A DNA stretch of 64,000 nucleotides from Salinirubellus salinus (GTDB lineage Archaea > Halobacteriota > Halobacteria > Halobacteriales > Haloarculaceae): NCBI RefSeq assembly GCF_025231485.1, contig NZ_CP104003.1, positions 1,054,001-1,118,000 of the forward strand, given 5' to 3'. A program made the translations under genes and the position numbers. Shown piece by piece: positions 7,170-51,055 of this stretch; the first letter of the stretch is position 1; the number at the start of each line of letters is the position of its first letter. The notes beneath the pieces are model-generated. The model was given only the letters and a program-made list of their open reading frames with translations, had not been told where the DNA came from and ran no database searches.

Positions 7170-7616
7170 ATGGTCAGGACCGACGCGGAGGACTGTGAGG
7201 CACTGTTCGAACGGGAGGTCGCCGAGCTCTGGAACGGCGACGGGGTGGACGTGGTAGACGAGTTGTACGCCCCGGAGTTCGTCGCCAGTCCGACGCCGGA
7301 CGACGACTGGCCGGCAGTGTCGACCGACCGCTCGTCACTGAAGGCCGCCCACAGGGAGTGGAACGACGCGTTCGCGGCACTCGAGACCGAGGTCGACGGC
7401 CTCGTCGTCGACGGCCACACCGTCCACGCCCAGTGGCGACGGACCGGCCGCCACGAAGGGACGTTCCGGGGCATCGCGCCCACGGGGAACGACATCGCCG
7501 TCTCGGGGTACTCCTACCGACGTGAGCGCGGCGGCCAGTTCGTCGAGGCGACCGACCAGACGGAGATGCCCACGCTGTTGTCACAACTGGGCGTCGAGGC
7601 CGACCTCGAGCACTGA
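7170..7616 (+). CDS. SnoaL/ester-cyclase-like NTF2-fold protein
   Basis: A 148-residue protein starting MVRTDAEDCEALFEREV. The layout is that of SnoaL-like ester-cyclase proteins: helical start, LYAPEFVASPTP, an HREWNDAFAALETEVDGLVVDG strand-helix region, HAQWRRTGRHEGTFRGIAPTG and YSYRRERGGQFVEA. The family folds as an alpha+beta cone; the substrate of haloarchaeal members is unknown. I use ATG 7170; an in-frame start at 7059 would add 37 non-conserved residues. It stands alone, ahead of hyuA on the same strand with a 60-base gap. Confidence 0.7.
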   Translation: MVRTDAEDCEALFEREVAELWNGDGVDVVDELYAPEFVASPTPDDDWPAVSTDRSSLKAAHREWNDAFAALETEVDGLVVDGHTVHAQWRRTGRHEGTFRGIAPTGNDIAVSGYSYRRERGGQFVEATDQTEMPTLLSQLGVEADLEH

Positions 7617-7676
7617 CCACCGCCACCCAGGGCTCGGCAGGGGAAGCTTCAGGCCGGGGCCCGCCGTCGGGTGGGT

Positions 7677-9710
7677 ATGCACGGAGCGGACACCGACCGG
7701 CGGCGACCCAGACTGGGGGTGGACGTCGGCGGGACGTTCACCGACCTCGTCGCGGTGGTCGACGGCCGACTCGCGGTCGAGAAGGTCGCGTCCACGCCGG
7801 ACGCCCCAGAACGAGGGGTCCTCGACGCGGTTCGGAGCGGCAGCCTCGACCCAGCGACGGTCGGCTTCTTCGCGCACGGGACCACCGTCGCCACCAACGC
7901 CGTCCTCGAGGGCGAGTGGGCCGACACGGCGCTCGTCACGACCGCGGGCTTCCGCGATGCGCTCGAGATCGGTCGACAGGACCGGCCCTCGCTGTACGAT
8001 CTCCACGCCGAGAAGCCACGGCCGGTCGTGGAGCGTGACCGGCGCTTCGAGGTCCGCGAACGCCTCGACGAGCGCGGCGAGGTGCTCGAACCGCTCGACG
8101 AGTCGAGTCTCGACAGTGTGGTCGAATCGGTCCGGGAGGCGGGCGTCGACAGCGTCGCGGTCTCGCTCCTGTTCGCGTACGAGAACCCTGCCCACGAGGA
8201 ACGGGTCGCCGCGCGCCTGCGCGAGACGCTCGACCCCCCGCCTTCGGTATCGCGCTCCAGTGCCGTCCTGCCGGAGGTCCGTGAGTACGAGCGGACGCTC
8301 GTCACCTGCCTGAACGCCGCGCTCCGGCCCGTCGTCGACACCTACGTCGGCGCACTCGACCGGTCGCTCGAGGACGCCGGGCTGGGAACCTCGCTCCGGC
8401 TGATGGGGTCGAACGCGGGGCTGATGTCGGCGACAGCCGCACGCGAACGTCCGGTGCAGACCCTGCTCTCGGGGCCCGCGGCGGGCGTCCGGGGTGCCAC
8501 CCACGTCGCCGGACGTGCGGGGTTCGACGACCTCCTGACGATGGACATGGGCGGTACCTCGTGCGACGTCTCGCTGGTACGCGAGGGGGATCCGGCCGTC
8601 TCGACGGCCGTCGAGGTGGGTGACTACCCGGTGGGCGTCCCGATGGTGGACGTCCACACCGTCGGCGCCGGGGGCGGGAGTATCGCGCACGTCGACGCGG
8701 GCGGTGCCCTGCGGGTCGGGCCGTCCTCGGCCGGGGCGGACCCCGGGCCGGTCTGCTACGGCCGCGGGGGGACCGAACCCACCGTGACGGACGCGAACTT
8801 CGTCCTCGGGCGCATCGACCCCGAGGCCTTTCTCGGTGACGTGGGCGGGGCGGAGAAGGCGGCCCAGGACGCCGTGGCCGACCTCGCGGCCGAGATGGGG
8901 ACGGCCACGCGCGACGCCGCCGCGGGCGTCCTCGACGTCGCGAACGCGAACATGGCGCGGGCGCTCCGCGTCGTCTCGGTCGAGCGGGGCCACGACCCGC
9001 GCGAGTTCACGCTCGTCGCGTTCGGCGGGGCTGGACCGCTCCACGCGTGTGCGCTCGCCGCCGAAGTCGGTGTCCCCCGTGTCCTCGTACCGCGTGCGGC
9101 CGGCGTGCTCTCGGCGCTCGGCCTGCTCGTCTCGGACCTCACGTACGACGAGTCCGTCTCGCGGGTCCGCCCGTTCGAGACGGTAGCCACCGAGACGGTG
9201 ACCGAGACGCTGGCCGACCTCGAGCGGCGGGGCCGTGCCCGACTCGACGAGACGGACGTCGACGAGGTGCGCGTCGAACGGTCCCTCGACGTGCGCTACC
9301 GCGGGCAGTCGTTCGACCTGTCCATCCCGGTCGACGCCGATGGTCCCGACCTCGACGCGCTGGCCGACCGCTTCCACGACGCCCACGAGCGGCGGTATGG
9401 GAGCGCCTCGCCCGGCGAACCGCTCGAACTCGTCACGGTTCGGGTGCGCGTCAGGGGCGTCGTGGGCCCGCCGGAACTGACCGTCCCCGACCGGACCGGG
9501 ACCGTCGCCGACGCGAGACGCGAGACGCGGTCGGTCTGGTTCGACGGCGAGATGTCGACCCCCGTCTACGAACGGGCGGCGCTGCCCACCGGCGCACGGG
9601 TCGACGGCCCGGCCGTCGTCGAGGGGAGCGAGTCGACCCTCGTCGTCCGGCCCGACGACGCCGTCTCCGTCGACGCCGACGGGAACCTCCTCGTGGAGGT
9701 GGAGCCGTGA
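7677..9710 (+). CDS. hyuA: Hydantoinase/oxoprolinase subunit A
   Basis: A 677-residue ATP-binding subunit of the HyuA/5-oxoprolinase family. The N terminus has the actin-like motif LGVDVGGTFTDLVAV, then FAHGTTVATNAVLEG, SNAGLMSA, LLSGPAAGVRGA and LTMDMGGTSCDVSLV, all hallmarks of the ATPase half that powers cleavage of cyclic amides such as hydantoins or 5-oxoproline. ATG 7677 is preferred over GTG 7671, two codons earlier. The TGA overlaps the hyuB GTG as GTGA. The actual substrate, and whether carboxylase- or oxoprolinase-like chemistry applies, cannot be decided from sequence. Confidence 0.92.
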   Translation: MHGADTDRRRPRLGVDVGGTFTDLVAVVDGRLAVEKVASTPDAPERGVLDAVRSGSLDPATVGFFAHGTTVATNAVLEGEWADTALVTTAGFRDALEIGRQDRPSLYDLHAEKPRPVVERDRRFEVRERLDERGEVLEPLDESSLDSVVESVREAGVDSVAVSLLFAYENPAHEERVAARLRETLDPPPSVSRSSAVLPEVREYERTLVTCLNAALRPVVDTYVGALDRSLEDAGLGTSLRLMGSNAGLMSATAARERPVQTLLSGPAAGVRGATHVAGRAGFDDLLTMDMGGTSCDVSLVREGDPAVSTAVEVGDYPVGVPMVDVHTVGAGGGSIAHVDAGGALRVGPSSAGADPGPVCYGRGGTEPTVTDANFVLGRIDPEAFLGDVGGAEKAAQDAVADLAAEMGTATRDAAAGVLDVANANMARALRVVSVERGHDPREFTLVAFGGAGPLHACALAAEVGVPRVLVPRAAGVLSALGLLVSDLTYDESVSRVRPFETVATETVTETLADLERRGRARLDETDVDEVRVERSLDVRYRGQSFDLSIPVDADGPDLDALADRFHDAHERRYGSASPGEPLELVTVRVRVRGVVGPPELTVPDRTGTVADARRETRSVWFDGEMSTPVYERAALPTGARVDGPAVVEGSESTLVVRPDDAVSVDADGNLLVEVEP

Positions 9711-23015: not shown

Positions 23016-24467
23016 ATGCGAATCGCCGTCTTCGGTGCGGGCTACGCCGGACTCACCGTCGCCCGCCGACTCCAGCGCCGACTCCCGCCCGGCGCGCAGT
23101 TGCTCGTCGTCGACGAATCGTCCGACCACCTCGTCCGCCACGAACTCCACCGCGTCGTCCGGCGCCCGGACCTCGCCGAAGCCATCACCGTCCCACTCGA
23201 GGAGGTGCTCCCAGAGGCGAAACTCGTCCGTGGCCGCGTGAGCGAGGTGGACCCCGAACGAGGCCGCGCCGTGCTCGTGGACGAGGCCGGAGCGGAGCGT
23301 GCGCTGACCTACGACCTCGCCGCCGTCTGCCTCGGGAGCGAGACGGAGTTCCACGGCCTCTCCGGCGTCGAGGAACACGCCACGCCGCTGGAGGGACTCC
23401 GCGACGCGCGGGCCATCCGCGATGCGGCTCTCGACGCTGCCGGCGGACACGCCGTGGTCGGTGGGGGCGGCCTGACGGGCGTGCAGGTGGCCGGCGAACT
23501 CGCCGAGCTCTCGCGAGCGAAGGGACTCGGCCTCGACGTGACGCTCGTCGAGCGGAACGACCGGGTCGCGCCGGGGTTCGGCCGCACGTTCGCGCGGGCC
23601 ATCGAGCGCGAACTCCGCGCACGGGACGTGACGGTGCTGACCGGTGCCAGCGTCGAGTCGGCCGACGCAGAGACGGTCAGGGTGGCCGGCGAGTCCCGCC
23701 CGTACGACGTGTTCGTCTGGGCGGGCGGCATCCACGGCTCAGCGGCGTTCGGCGGCGATCGACGGCCGGTCGGGGCGGACCTCCGGGTCGGCCGTGGGAC
23801 GTTCGTCGTCGGCGACGCCGGGGTCGTGACAGACGAGCGGGACCGGACCGCCCCGGCGAGCGCCCAGACCGCCATCCAGCAGGCACGTGTCGCCGCCGAG
23901 AACATCACGCGAGTCGCGAAGGCCACCGGTACGGCCGACCCGGCGTTCGTCGCCGAGGACACTGACCTCGACGGGTACCGCCACGAGTCGCCGGGCTGGG
24001 TCGTGAGCGTCGGTGACGGCGCGGTCGCACAGGTCGGGCCGGTCGTCCTGAGCGGCGACCCTGCCCGCGCCGCCAAGGCGGTCATCGGCGCGGGTCACCT
24101 CGGCTCCGTCGGGGCCATCGAGTCGGCGGCCGACGTCGTCGCCGAGGAACTGGGCTGGCCCACGAGCGAGGCCGTCGAGGGCGTGGCGCTCCTCTCCGAG
24201 ACACTGGACCTCGACCGACTGACCGAGACTACGGACCCCGCCTCACCCAGTGAGGTGGAGTACCCGCTCGCGCTCACCGGCGTCGCGCTGGCCGAGGCCT
24301 TCGGCACCCCTGACGTCGACCTCACCCTCGCCACCCGGCTGGCCGACCGGCAGTACCCCGGCAGTCCCGCACGGCTGTTCGACCAGACGGTGCTGAAGCC
24401 CGCCGAGTCGGTGCTCGAGCTGGCGACGTTCGGGGTGCTGGGTGGGCGGCCGGACGAGGAGGAGTGA
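23016..24467 (+). CDS. NDH-2-like FAD-dependent NAD(P)H:quinone oxidoreductase
   Basis: A 483-residue protein with two Rossmann motifs: [19 protein letters not shown] at the N terminus (FAD) and [19 protein letters not shown] near residue 150 (NADH), then [11 protein letters not shown] and [16 protein letters not shown], the pattern of type II NADH dehydrogenases. It likely passes electrons from NADH to menaquinone at the inner face of the membrane. An extra 120-residue C-terminal region follows the NDH core. ATG 23016 is the family start. Confidence 0.82.
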
Positions 24468-24479
24468 GAGCGAGGTGAG

Positions 24480-24605
24480 TGTGTGGGACCGGATTCGAAC
24501 CGTGCCGAGAATCGCTCCGCTCGTCTCGTCGGGATCGAACCCGCCCGTCAGCGCAGCCGCTGCTCACTTCGTTCGCAGTAGGATGCGTGGGACCGGATTT
24601 GAACC
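24480..24605 (-). repeat. Two decayed copies of the tRNA-Leu 3' end downstream of the tRNA gene
   Basis: Positions 24584-24605 repeat the last 22 bases of the tRNA-Leu (acceptor strand plus T-arm) perfectly, and 24480-24501 repeat them with two differences. The flanks are copied too: 24541-24605 and 24655-24719 are near-identical 65-base units 114 bases apart. No D-arm or anticodon arm accompanies either copy, so they are not tRNA genes. A further GGGATCGAACCCG T-arm-like run lies near 24531-24543. Confidence 0.8.
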
Positions 24606-24697
24606 ACGGTCGGACGTGCTCGCTCCGGTGTGCGCGCCCTCCCTGGTCCAGAATCCGCCCGTCAGCGCTTCCACTGCTCACTTCGTTCGCGGCAGGA

Positions 24698-24781
24698 TGC
24701 GTGGGACCGGATTTGAACCGGCGGACTCCTACGAGACAGCGTCCTAAGCGCTGCGCCGTTTCCTGGCTTGGCTACCCACGC
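24698..24781 (-). tRNA. tRNA-Leu (anticodon UAG)
   Basis: A complete class II tRNA on the minus strand: acceptor GCGTGGG pairs with CCCACGC plus discriminator A (24698), anticodon arm CAGCG-CTTAGGA-CGCTG with anticodon TAG, a long variable arm, and T-loop TTCAAAT. It reads CUA codons. No CCA is encoded. The 230 bases after its 3' end, up to the NDH-2 stop, hold only repeated fragments of its own 3' end. Confidence 0.93.
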
Positions 24782-24821
24782 GCACCCCGAACTACCCCCG
24801 ACCACCCCAAAAGAACGTCGC

Positions 24822-25337
24822 TTATCGCCCGACCCGGTCACGGATCGCGGCCACCAACCCCTCCCCGTCGAACGCCGTCGACTCGAGCACCTCAACCGGG
24901 TCACCCTCGCCGACCGCTCCACCCTCTATCACCCTCGCACACACCCCGCCACGACCCTGCTTCAACGCGCGCATCACACCCGACTCTTCGGCCACCCGTT
25001 CGACGTGCACGCAGGGCGGCCGCGGCCGCGTGCCCTCGAACACCGCGTCACCGACCCGGAACCGCGCGTCCAGCAGGTCATCGTGGACGTCGACCCCCTC
25101 CGTGACGAGGTTCCGGCGGTGCCGACCGTCGGTCAGGTCGATGTCGTAGCGCTCGCGTATCTCCGCCAGCGCCTCGCACTCGACGAACGTCACCTCGCAC
25201 ACGTCGAACGGGGAGTAGTACCCCTGCCCGGTCTGGTAGCGGTCACCCGCGAGGCCGCCCTCGACGGCGTGGATGGAATCCGTCCGCTGCATCGGTTCGC
25301 CGCCCGCCTCGGCGAACCAGATCTCGACGAGTCGCAT
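24822..25337 (-). CDS. MOSC-domain protein
   Basis: A 171-residue MOSC protein: MRLVEIWFAEAGGEPMQRTD, then GLAGDRYQTGQGYYS, DLTDGRHRRNLVTEGVDV and the Cys-bearing GTRPRPPCVHVERV segment; in the family the conserved Cys carries sulfur for molybdenum-cofactor enzymes. Length fits free-standing YiiM-like MOSC proteins. MoaA is encoded in the same window but 33 kb away. ATG 25337 is unambiguous. Confidence 0.87.
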   Translation of the reverse strand: MRLVEIWFAEAGGEPMQRTDSIHAVEGGLAGDRYQTGQGYYSPFDVCEVTFVECEALAEIRERYDIDLTDGRHRRNLVTEGVDVHDDLLDARFRVGDAVFEGTRPRPPCVHVERVAEESGVMRALKQGRGGVCARVIEGGAVGEGDPVEVLESTAFDGEGLVAAIRDRVGR

Positions 25338-50790: not shown

Positions 50791-50866
50791 TGCTTAGTGT
50801 TGGTGTCGAGAGAGTCGGAGTGAGAGCGGAAGCCGTCGGCTCGTCCGGAAGGACGAGTCGAAGAAC

Positions 50867-50887
50867 GCAGGGAGCAGGATCCGAACC
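50867..50887 (-). repeat. Partial copy of the tRNA-Leu 3' end between tRNA and rpl18e
   Basis: These 21 bases repeat the acceptor 3' strand and T-arm loop of the tRNA-Leu at 50971-51055 with one base difference (TTCGAA to CCGAA-type). A second T-arm-like run, CGAGGATCGAACCTG, lies at 50911-50925. They sit in the 180-base leader of rpl18e. The arrangement mirrors the fragments after the tRNA-Leu at 24.7 kb. Confidence 0.7.
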
Positions 50888-50970: not shown

Positions 50971-51055
50971 TGCAGGGAGCAGGATTCGAACCTGCGGACC
51001 CCTATGGGACAGCGCCCTGAACGCTGCGCCGTTGACCTGACTTGGCTATCCCTGC
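50971..51055 (-). tRNA. tRNA-Leu (anticodon CAG)
   Basis: A complete class II tRNA: acceptor GCAGGGA/TCCCTGC with discriminator A at 50971, anticodon arm CAGCG-TTCAGGG-CGCTG with anticodon CAG, long variable arm TCCCATAGGGGTCC, T-arm GCAGG-TTCGAAT-CCTGC. It reads CUG, a preferred Leu codon in high-G+C genomes. It stands between rpoD and rpl18e on the same strand, so it is probably cut from the operon transcript. Confidence 0.93.

Follow-up and report, generated by a model that had tools for sequence, protein, structure and literature searches.

The window, by which we mean the whole stretch analysed, comprises 64,000 nt of contig NZ_CP104003.1 of Salinirubellus salinus. On its minus strand, a tRNA-Leu(UAG) gene is followed by two copies of its own 3′ end. 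The copied segment, termed block A, is repeated downstream as A′ and again as A″. The stretches between the blocks are referred to as spacers, and a block together with the spacer behind it, after which a further copy follows, as a unit. The first spacer contains a hairpin (H1), an inverted piece of the T-loop (anti-A) and a further hairpin module. A second tRNA-Leu gene in the window is followed by a copy of the same kind. The positions of all these features are listed in Table 1.

Table 1. Features of the tRNA-Leu(UAG) array and of the second case in the window
Feature	Position	Strand	Basis
tRNA-Leu(UAG) gene	24698..24781	(-)	ARAGORN and Rfam
Block A, the copied segment (tRNA bases 52-73, T-loop to last base)	24698..24719	(-)	
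Unit 1 spacer (H1, inverted T-loop piece and hairpin module)	24606..24697	(-)	
Unit 1 H1 hairpin, core C-GA-AC-GAA-GT-GA-G	24674..24695	(-)	Form from pooled H1
Unit 1 anti-A (inverted T-loop piece), degenerate	24645..24656	(-)	
Unit 1 hairpin module, class CAGGGAGG...CCGACCGT, common to units at other tRNAs	24606..24646	(-)	
Copy A′, 22/22 against the tRNA	24584..24605	(-)	
Unit 2 spacer	24502..24583	(-)	
Unit 2 H1 hairpin	24559..24580	(-)	
Unit 2 presumed anti-A, degenerate	24531..24542	(-)	Assigned by eye
Distal copy A″, 20/22 against the tRNA	24480..24501	(-)	
Second case: 20/22 copy behind tRNA-Leu(CAG) (50971-51055, (-))	50866..50887	(-)	

The 22-nt sequence GGTTCAAATCCGGTCCCACGCA was present exactly at 24698-24719, inside the tRNA gene, and at 24584-24605, and GGTTCGAATCCGGTCCCACACA at 24480-24501 corresponded to the same block with two changes. 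When both strands of the window were scanned, matches of at least 19/22 to the block were found in three places; in shuffled windows, the best match was at most 15/22 (five mononucleotide shuffles, plus strand only). An earlier sequence-only reading of the window had reported these exact and near-exact copies, and both the sequence match and the shuffles confirmed them. It had also described a 65-base unit repeated at 114 bases. The repeat search returned the same spacing of 114 nt for a unit of 69 nt with 91% identity, close to the length first given, together with a 23-nt repeat family at spacings of 104 and 114. The description of the copies as decayed was appropriate for the distal copy only, the proximal copy being intact (22/22). 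The spacer hairpins of both units were imperfect, with folding z values of 0.05 and −0.26, which is no better than shuffles.

A search with Rfam over 24300-25000 returned no tRNA-like hit beyond the true tRNA-Leu(UAG). Two plus-strand ORFs, at 24442-24747 and 24479-25105, cross the array, and the inverted T-loop is translated there as repeated GTGFEP and GPDLN. They are likely to be spurious proteins of a kind that annotation pipelines may report. The same caution applies to such arrays elsewhere, which give spurious short ORFs and whose partial-tRNA copies are readable as prophage scars.

The tRNA genes of this genome and of a relative (G001) were surveyed with loci chosen by tRNA, involving no pattern selection. 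A copy was accepted when at least 17/22 positions matched at 50-200 nt downstream, and the range inspected upstream was 250 nt. In the Salinirubellus genome, 9/44 tRNA genes exhibited a copy 98-172 nt downstream and none exhibited one upstream; a second test gave 10/44 downstream and again 0 upstream. For G001, 30 of the 42 tRNA loci were retrieved, of which 29 were suitable for analysis; nine of the 29 had a downstream copy, likewise at a distance of 98-172 nt, and none had an upstream one.

The edges of the copied block were defined from 282 pooled units. The block started at the GG-TTC of the T-loop and ended at the last base of the tRNA. Identity between A and A′ was 0.85-0.99 at offsets 0-21, dropped to 0.56, 0.44 and 0.39 at the next three bases, and was near chance upstream of the block. 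The right edge is not a detection artefact, because the 22nd base was not used in detecting the copies. In G001 this edge was crisp, with an identity of 1.00 at offset 21 and 0.33 at offset 22. In the Salinirubellus genome it was blurred (0.89 at offset 21, 0.78 at 22 and 0.56 at 23-25 for nine copies), and where the match terminated at base 73 (six tRNAs), it could be extended by a few bases in up to four. The left edge in this genome was evident from an 11-mer profile, in which 7/44 tRNAs matched for the 11-mer starting at GG and none for the one starting a single base earlier.

Two candidate sources of the copies were rejected. Similarity ended at GG-TTC and was about chance just upstream, which is not the pattern of decayed tandem tRNA genes. 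As for copying from mature tRNA, no CCA followed the copies in the listed units, and the purine changes at base 57 showed no clear bias in direction (10 from A to G, 5 from G to A).

In pooled units, the last base of A′ coincides with the expected tRNase Z cleavage site, as it should in a tRNA-like processing element. However, copying does not extend to the 5′ T-stem strand or to the remainder of the tRNA, and the T-loop pairs with anti-A in the unit's second hairpin. Because the matches stop at GG and the 5′ T-stem strand is absent, the copies do not possess a self-contained tRNA-like fold, and it is highly improbable that they are elements cut by tRNase Z. The tRNA-like elements of Haloferax volcanii mimic the tRNA fold. 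They share with the units a resemblance to the tRNA 3′ end, of which the units copy ~22 nt only. In Hoelzle's 2012 search for tRNA-like elements in that species, the new ones that were tested reportedly remained uncut in vitro.

The order of components in a unit was A (tRNA bases 52-73), H1 hairpin, anti-A (the complement of the T-loop), hairpin module and A′. The spacing of units had a median of 113 nt (5-95% range 94-148). This was determined in a set, also used for polarity, in which most loci were chosen by patterns demanding perfect T-loop copies. The set excludes duplicates, loci with a downstream sequence of less than 250 nt, tRNAs lacking GTTC close to their end, and 11 further loci that were viral or non-haloarchaeal or, in one case, contained tandem tRNAs. 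An anti-A core was found in 258/282 units with a threshold of at least 5/6 fixed positions, which by our estimate about one unit in four might reach by chance. In 232 of these 258 units, the anti-A base opposite the T-loop's variable purine fitted the unit's own tRNA. At the next three anti-A bases, 369 of 774 fitted the own tRNA, compared with 227.7 ± 11.3 when the tRNAs were shuffled. The T-loop part of anti-A was kept more often than the acceptor part.

By eye, A, H1 and anti-A could be read as a single quasi-palindrome, and at one locus (L141) the inverted copy matched at 21/21 positions. Where the variable purine differed between A and A′, the fit of anti-A was to the upstream block in 12 units, to A′ in two and to neither in one. 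These observations all speak for local template switching during replication or repair, in which foldback copying and return to the template would generate the direct and inverted copies with no dedicated mobility. The modules after anti-A, however, did not follow the local tRNA. The tRNAs at which one class was found represented 10 amino acids, those of another class represented 13, and the modules recurred across many genera. Template switching also leaves the right edge at base 73 unexplained, and was considered an unlikely origin of the units.

H1 was of the form stem-C-GA-NN-loop-NN-GA-G in 153/258 units. One of the inner pairs was Watson-Crick in 138 of these 153 compared with 68 ± 5.8 after shuffling, the variants being mostly AC/GT, GC/GC, CC/GG and GT/AC, and the other inner pair was Watson-Crick in 139/153 compared with 130 ± 1.7. 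For the second hairpin, whose structure was predicted on the same alignment as was scored and whose arms follow the tRNA, 940/968 cells were paired in class 1 (59 units), with double-sided changes at 9/17 pairs. The corresponding values for class 2 (38 distinct units) were 446/456 cells and 3/12 pairs. The covariation of the first H1 inner pair, the double-sided changes in class 1 and the better retention of the T-loop part of anti-A would all be consistent with a selected nucleic-acid structure at tRNA 3′ flanks. Candidates are a trailer RNA, a signal for termination or processing, and a structure formed by the DNA, with selection keeping A′, anti-A and the hairpins. Set against this, the window's own units fold no better than shuffled sequence, and no copy was present at 35/44 tRNAs of the Salinirubellus genome and 20/29 of G001.

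To describe the distribution of the units, genomes were searched with T-loop patterns; here, as in the other counts given, genomes of related species do not constitute independent observations. Of 116 haloarchaeal genomes, 109 contained two T-loop sequences whose starts were separated by 83-113 nt, a count that takes in some tandem tRNA genes, and the reversed control pattern gave 0. The triple pattern of T-loop, inverted T-loop and T-loop was present in 62/72 haloarchaeal genomes (same order) and in 0/223 other genomes of the phylum. This breadth within the haloarchaea would also suit a selected structure. In a scan of genome contigs, the triple pattern matched at least 120 stretches, and, judged by title, haloarchaea accounted for 74 of 80 among the matches listed; L150, L161, L178 and L223 were tandem bacterial tRNA genes. 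In one Woesearchaeota genome (G398, L192), three tRNA-Ser genes were followed by units which had their module in common and each of which copied the end of its own tRNA. A fourth fitting place in this genome was at tRNA-Leu, and a second Woesearchaeota genome (G399) provided one weaker case.

Variation at a single tRNA was assessed at tRNA-Gln(CUG) in a genus of 32 genomes, from which 30 loci were fetched and 28 were readable, no tRNA-Gln being called in the other two (L283, L284). By eye, nine loci had no unit, 12 had one, six had two and one had three, with two loci that hold H1-like remnants (L267, L269) scored as having no unit. In L257, an extra tRNA-proximal unit preceded one that matched the single unit of L261, and in L260 and L265 the modules were fused at a shared AGCGAAGCGAG loop. 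For seven empty loci, the best filled partner matched at 0.68-0.82 after its last copy compared with 0.52-0.62 after the tRNA. This trailer comparison is indicative only, because the first of these values served to rank the partners, and among those ranked lower some tie or reverse. As far as sequence comparison goes, the loci with 0-3 units and the trailers would fit gain and loss of units alike. In L280 and L268, the 3′ end kept by the distal copy was that of a different tRNA-Gln allele from the present gene. This is as expected for displaced old tRNA ends, or for a later gene exchange that replaced the tRNA.

Between species, the first A′ diverged about as much as the spacers, with identities of 0.85 and 0.83, respectively, in the Gln set (35 pairs) and 0.89 and 0.82 overall (55 pairs). 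A′ copies that start a further unit were identical in several between-species comparisons. Both the similar divergence of the first A′ and the spacers and the presence of 0-3 units at the same tRNA within one genus count against a selected structure, which on balance appears rather unlikely as an explanation of the units. In a set of mostly pattern-chosen loci, the distal copy was less tRNA-like in 38 arrays, more tRNA-like in four and tied in 26. The G001 sample did not exhibit such polarity (distal copy lower in one array, higher in two, tied in three), and growth of the arrays at the tRNA end is therefore a suggestion only.

Site-specific insertion (or loss) at the tRNA 3′ end, probably with displacement of the old end, is favoured by the 22-nt block, the variation between 0 and 3 units and the trailer comparison. 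The explanation we put forward, to which we assign a little short of an even chance, is that short non-coding units are inserted site-specifically in tRNA 3′ ends, duplicating ~22 bp, and that arrays form by repetition. A unit would be inserted at the T-loop/3′ end of the tRNA gene, after which the tRNA would retain an intact 3′ end. The former 3′ end, along with its own trailer, would be displaced downstream as A′, and it is by this displacement that ~22 bp would be duplicated. Repeated insertions would then produce arrays, whose units could be removed or reshuffled when A copies, or the loops of shared modules, recombine with one another. We infer insertion rather than local copying, together with a putative recombinase that would recognise the T-loop or the hairpins. 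Counting against insertion are the blurred right edge in the Salinirubellus genome and the folding of the window's units, noted above. What simple insertion with target duplication chiefly fails to account for is the match of anti-A to the tRNA, which foldback copying or selection for pairing would explain.

The association of the units with tRNA genes was examined using two further searches. The module core was identified at 20 places in 13/58 genomes, and 19 of the 20 were behind a tRNA of Leu, Ser, Arg, Lys, Phe or Val. The remaining one, L128 (G000:C1:3351400), had no tRNA call in the locus. Nearby, 9 nt match the end of tRNA-Arg(CCG), and the locus may represent a tRNA end that was displaced or lost. 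With the pattern anti-A-module-A′, 38 hits were obtained across four genomes, palindromic units being counted on both strands, and all 30 of the 30 loci fetched were located ~30-203 nt behind a tRNA. The units follow a tRNA nearly everywhere examined. Apart from L128, no tRNA-free unit was found with the module-core and anti-A-module-A′ searches, and any independent mobility is therefore hypothetical. In G008, identical modules were present at two tRNAs (L029, L032). As this string is also present in further genera (L034, L035), it does not mark a recent jump; these identical modules would indicate exchange or conservation rather than a dated jump.

The sequence-only reading had proposed that the copies may record earlier insertions at the tRNA 3′ end. 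The direction of this proposal is upheld by a block that runs from the T-loop to the last base, by loci with 0-3 units and by empty-locus trailers that resemble the sequence after the last copy. It does not appear to hold for large integrated elements, as the ~100-nt inserts constitute a recurrent structured family with modules common to many tRNAs. Relatives carry the copies with no large insertion, an outcome that the reading had itself named as an argument against recent attachment sites, and this lowers the probability of such sites of integrated elements.

A block that runs from the T-loop to the 3′ end is a usual identity block of tRNA integrases, and would also be left by ordinary viruses or plasmids that had used the tRNA 3′ end as an attachment site and were later deleted. 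Two loci, L018 and L252, point the same way. In L018 (G027), a gene-sized insert of 1.37 kb extends from tRNA-Leu to a far copy ~1370 nt downstream; the acceptor end of the tRNA-Leu is mismatched and the far copy is preceded by a unit module end. L252 (IMGVR_UViG_3300000875_000004) is a tailed-virus contig with a tRNA-Glu and then a complete unit at ~13797, in a region that may be the host flank of a provirus, or the tRNA may be viral. The regular spacing of the units, their shared structured modules and the presence of copies at 9/44 tRNAs of one genome are at odds with such scars, as are the 0 matches of three exact unit-end patterns to IMG/VR. The unit of L252 was itself missed by these three patterns, and therefore other viral unit ends are not excluded. 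The triple pattern matched four contigs in IMG/VR, namely three with tandem viral tRNA pairs and L252, and the consensus unit gave one partial hit to plasmids. No integrase or element was found between the copies, where spacers of ~70-130 nt leave no coding room (L018 being the exception). Among far copies of tRNA ends (fetched loci, eight viewed), only L018 suggested a larger element. The classical virus scar is unlikely, the predicted element or attP not having been seen, L018 and L252 aside, and deleted viruses or plasmids as the general source of the units were regarded as very improbable.

The units were compared with known systems. Integron attC and CALIN arrays consist of imperfect hairpins and grow from one anchor site. 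In contrast, the units were seen with neither integrase nor cassettes, and their anchor is a tRNA, which is copied by each repeat. The integrative elements that target tRNAs by means of tyrosine integrases likewise have an identity block from the T-loop to the 3′ end, leave the tRNA intact and produce a direct copy downstream. The units differ from these in being ~100 nt, non-coding, structured, often tandem and present at several tRNAs per genome. An element of the larger kind is described in passages of PMC3119063, in which a 43-nt tRNA-His repeat flanks a 52-kb island.

Casposons, which employ a Cas1-type integrase, are also archaeal, target the tRNA 3′ end and generate a target duplication of fixed length. 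According to excerpts of PMC6977970, this duplication is 14-15 bp, and in the M. mazei casposon it includes only the last 4 bp of tRNA-Leu and 10 beyond. The block of the units is 22 bp rather than 14-15 bp and ends at or near the last tRNA base. A casposase is unlikely, because the casposon duplication has that shorter length and, in M. mazei, is mostly beyond the tRNA. The small mobile repeat SMR-A of Haloquadratum is presented in passages of PMC3119063 as ~110 bp, non-coding, haloarchaeal and palindrome-linked, with mobilisation unknown, and as targeting IS605-type palindromes with no target duplication. SMR-A, considered here alongside the PATEs of Haloquadratum, resembles the units in size, non-coding nature, haloarchaeal host and link to palindromes. 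The units are distinguished from SMR-A, as described there, by their location at tRNAs with an A/A′ direct repeat and by the tRNA-matched copy.

The arrangement lacks a defining feature of each known family tested. No description of such units was found in the open-access literature searched, and an earlier mention elsewhere is possible. A broader scheme, which we regard as speculative and unlikely, is that tRNA genes are the anchors of an integron-like system without cassettes. In haloarchaea and some Woesearchaeota, a putative recombinase would act on the universal T-loop (GGTTCRAATCC) and on DNA folded into hairpins. Structured units of ~100 nt would go in at the tRNA end, and the last 22 bases of the tRNA concerned would be duplicated. 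If site-specific insertion is correct, many haloarchaeal tRNA genes bear a repeat system that has so far escaped description and that reproduces the end of its host tRNA with almost single-base accuracy, which would point to a recombination or copying activity aimed at the T-loop. The triple pattern was also present in Haloferax prahovense and H. mucosum (L196, L199), which as relatives of the model H. volcanii could serve as a test bed.

Some individual loci exhibited other arrangements. In L196 of Haloferax prahovense, two tRNA-Phe genes with different trailers are 1842 nt apart and could flank a small insertion. In L142 (Natronolimnohabitans), the whole tRNA-Gly gene with its unit is duplicated in tandem at 7274-7751, the duplicates being 407 nt apart. 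Behind tRNA-Arg in L316 (contig G400:C32), the further copies comprised the acceptor part only (TGCTCGGCGCG). Each ended at the last base of the tRNA and was positioned behind other hairpins, possibly representing a second type of unit.
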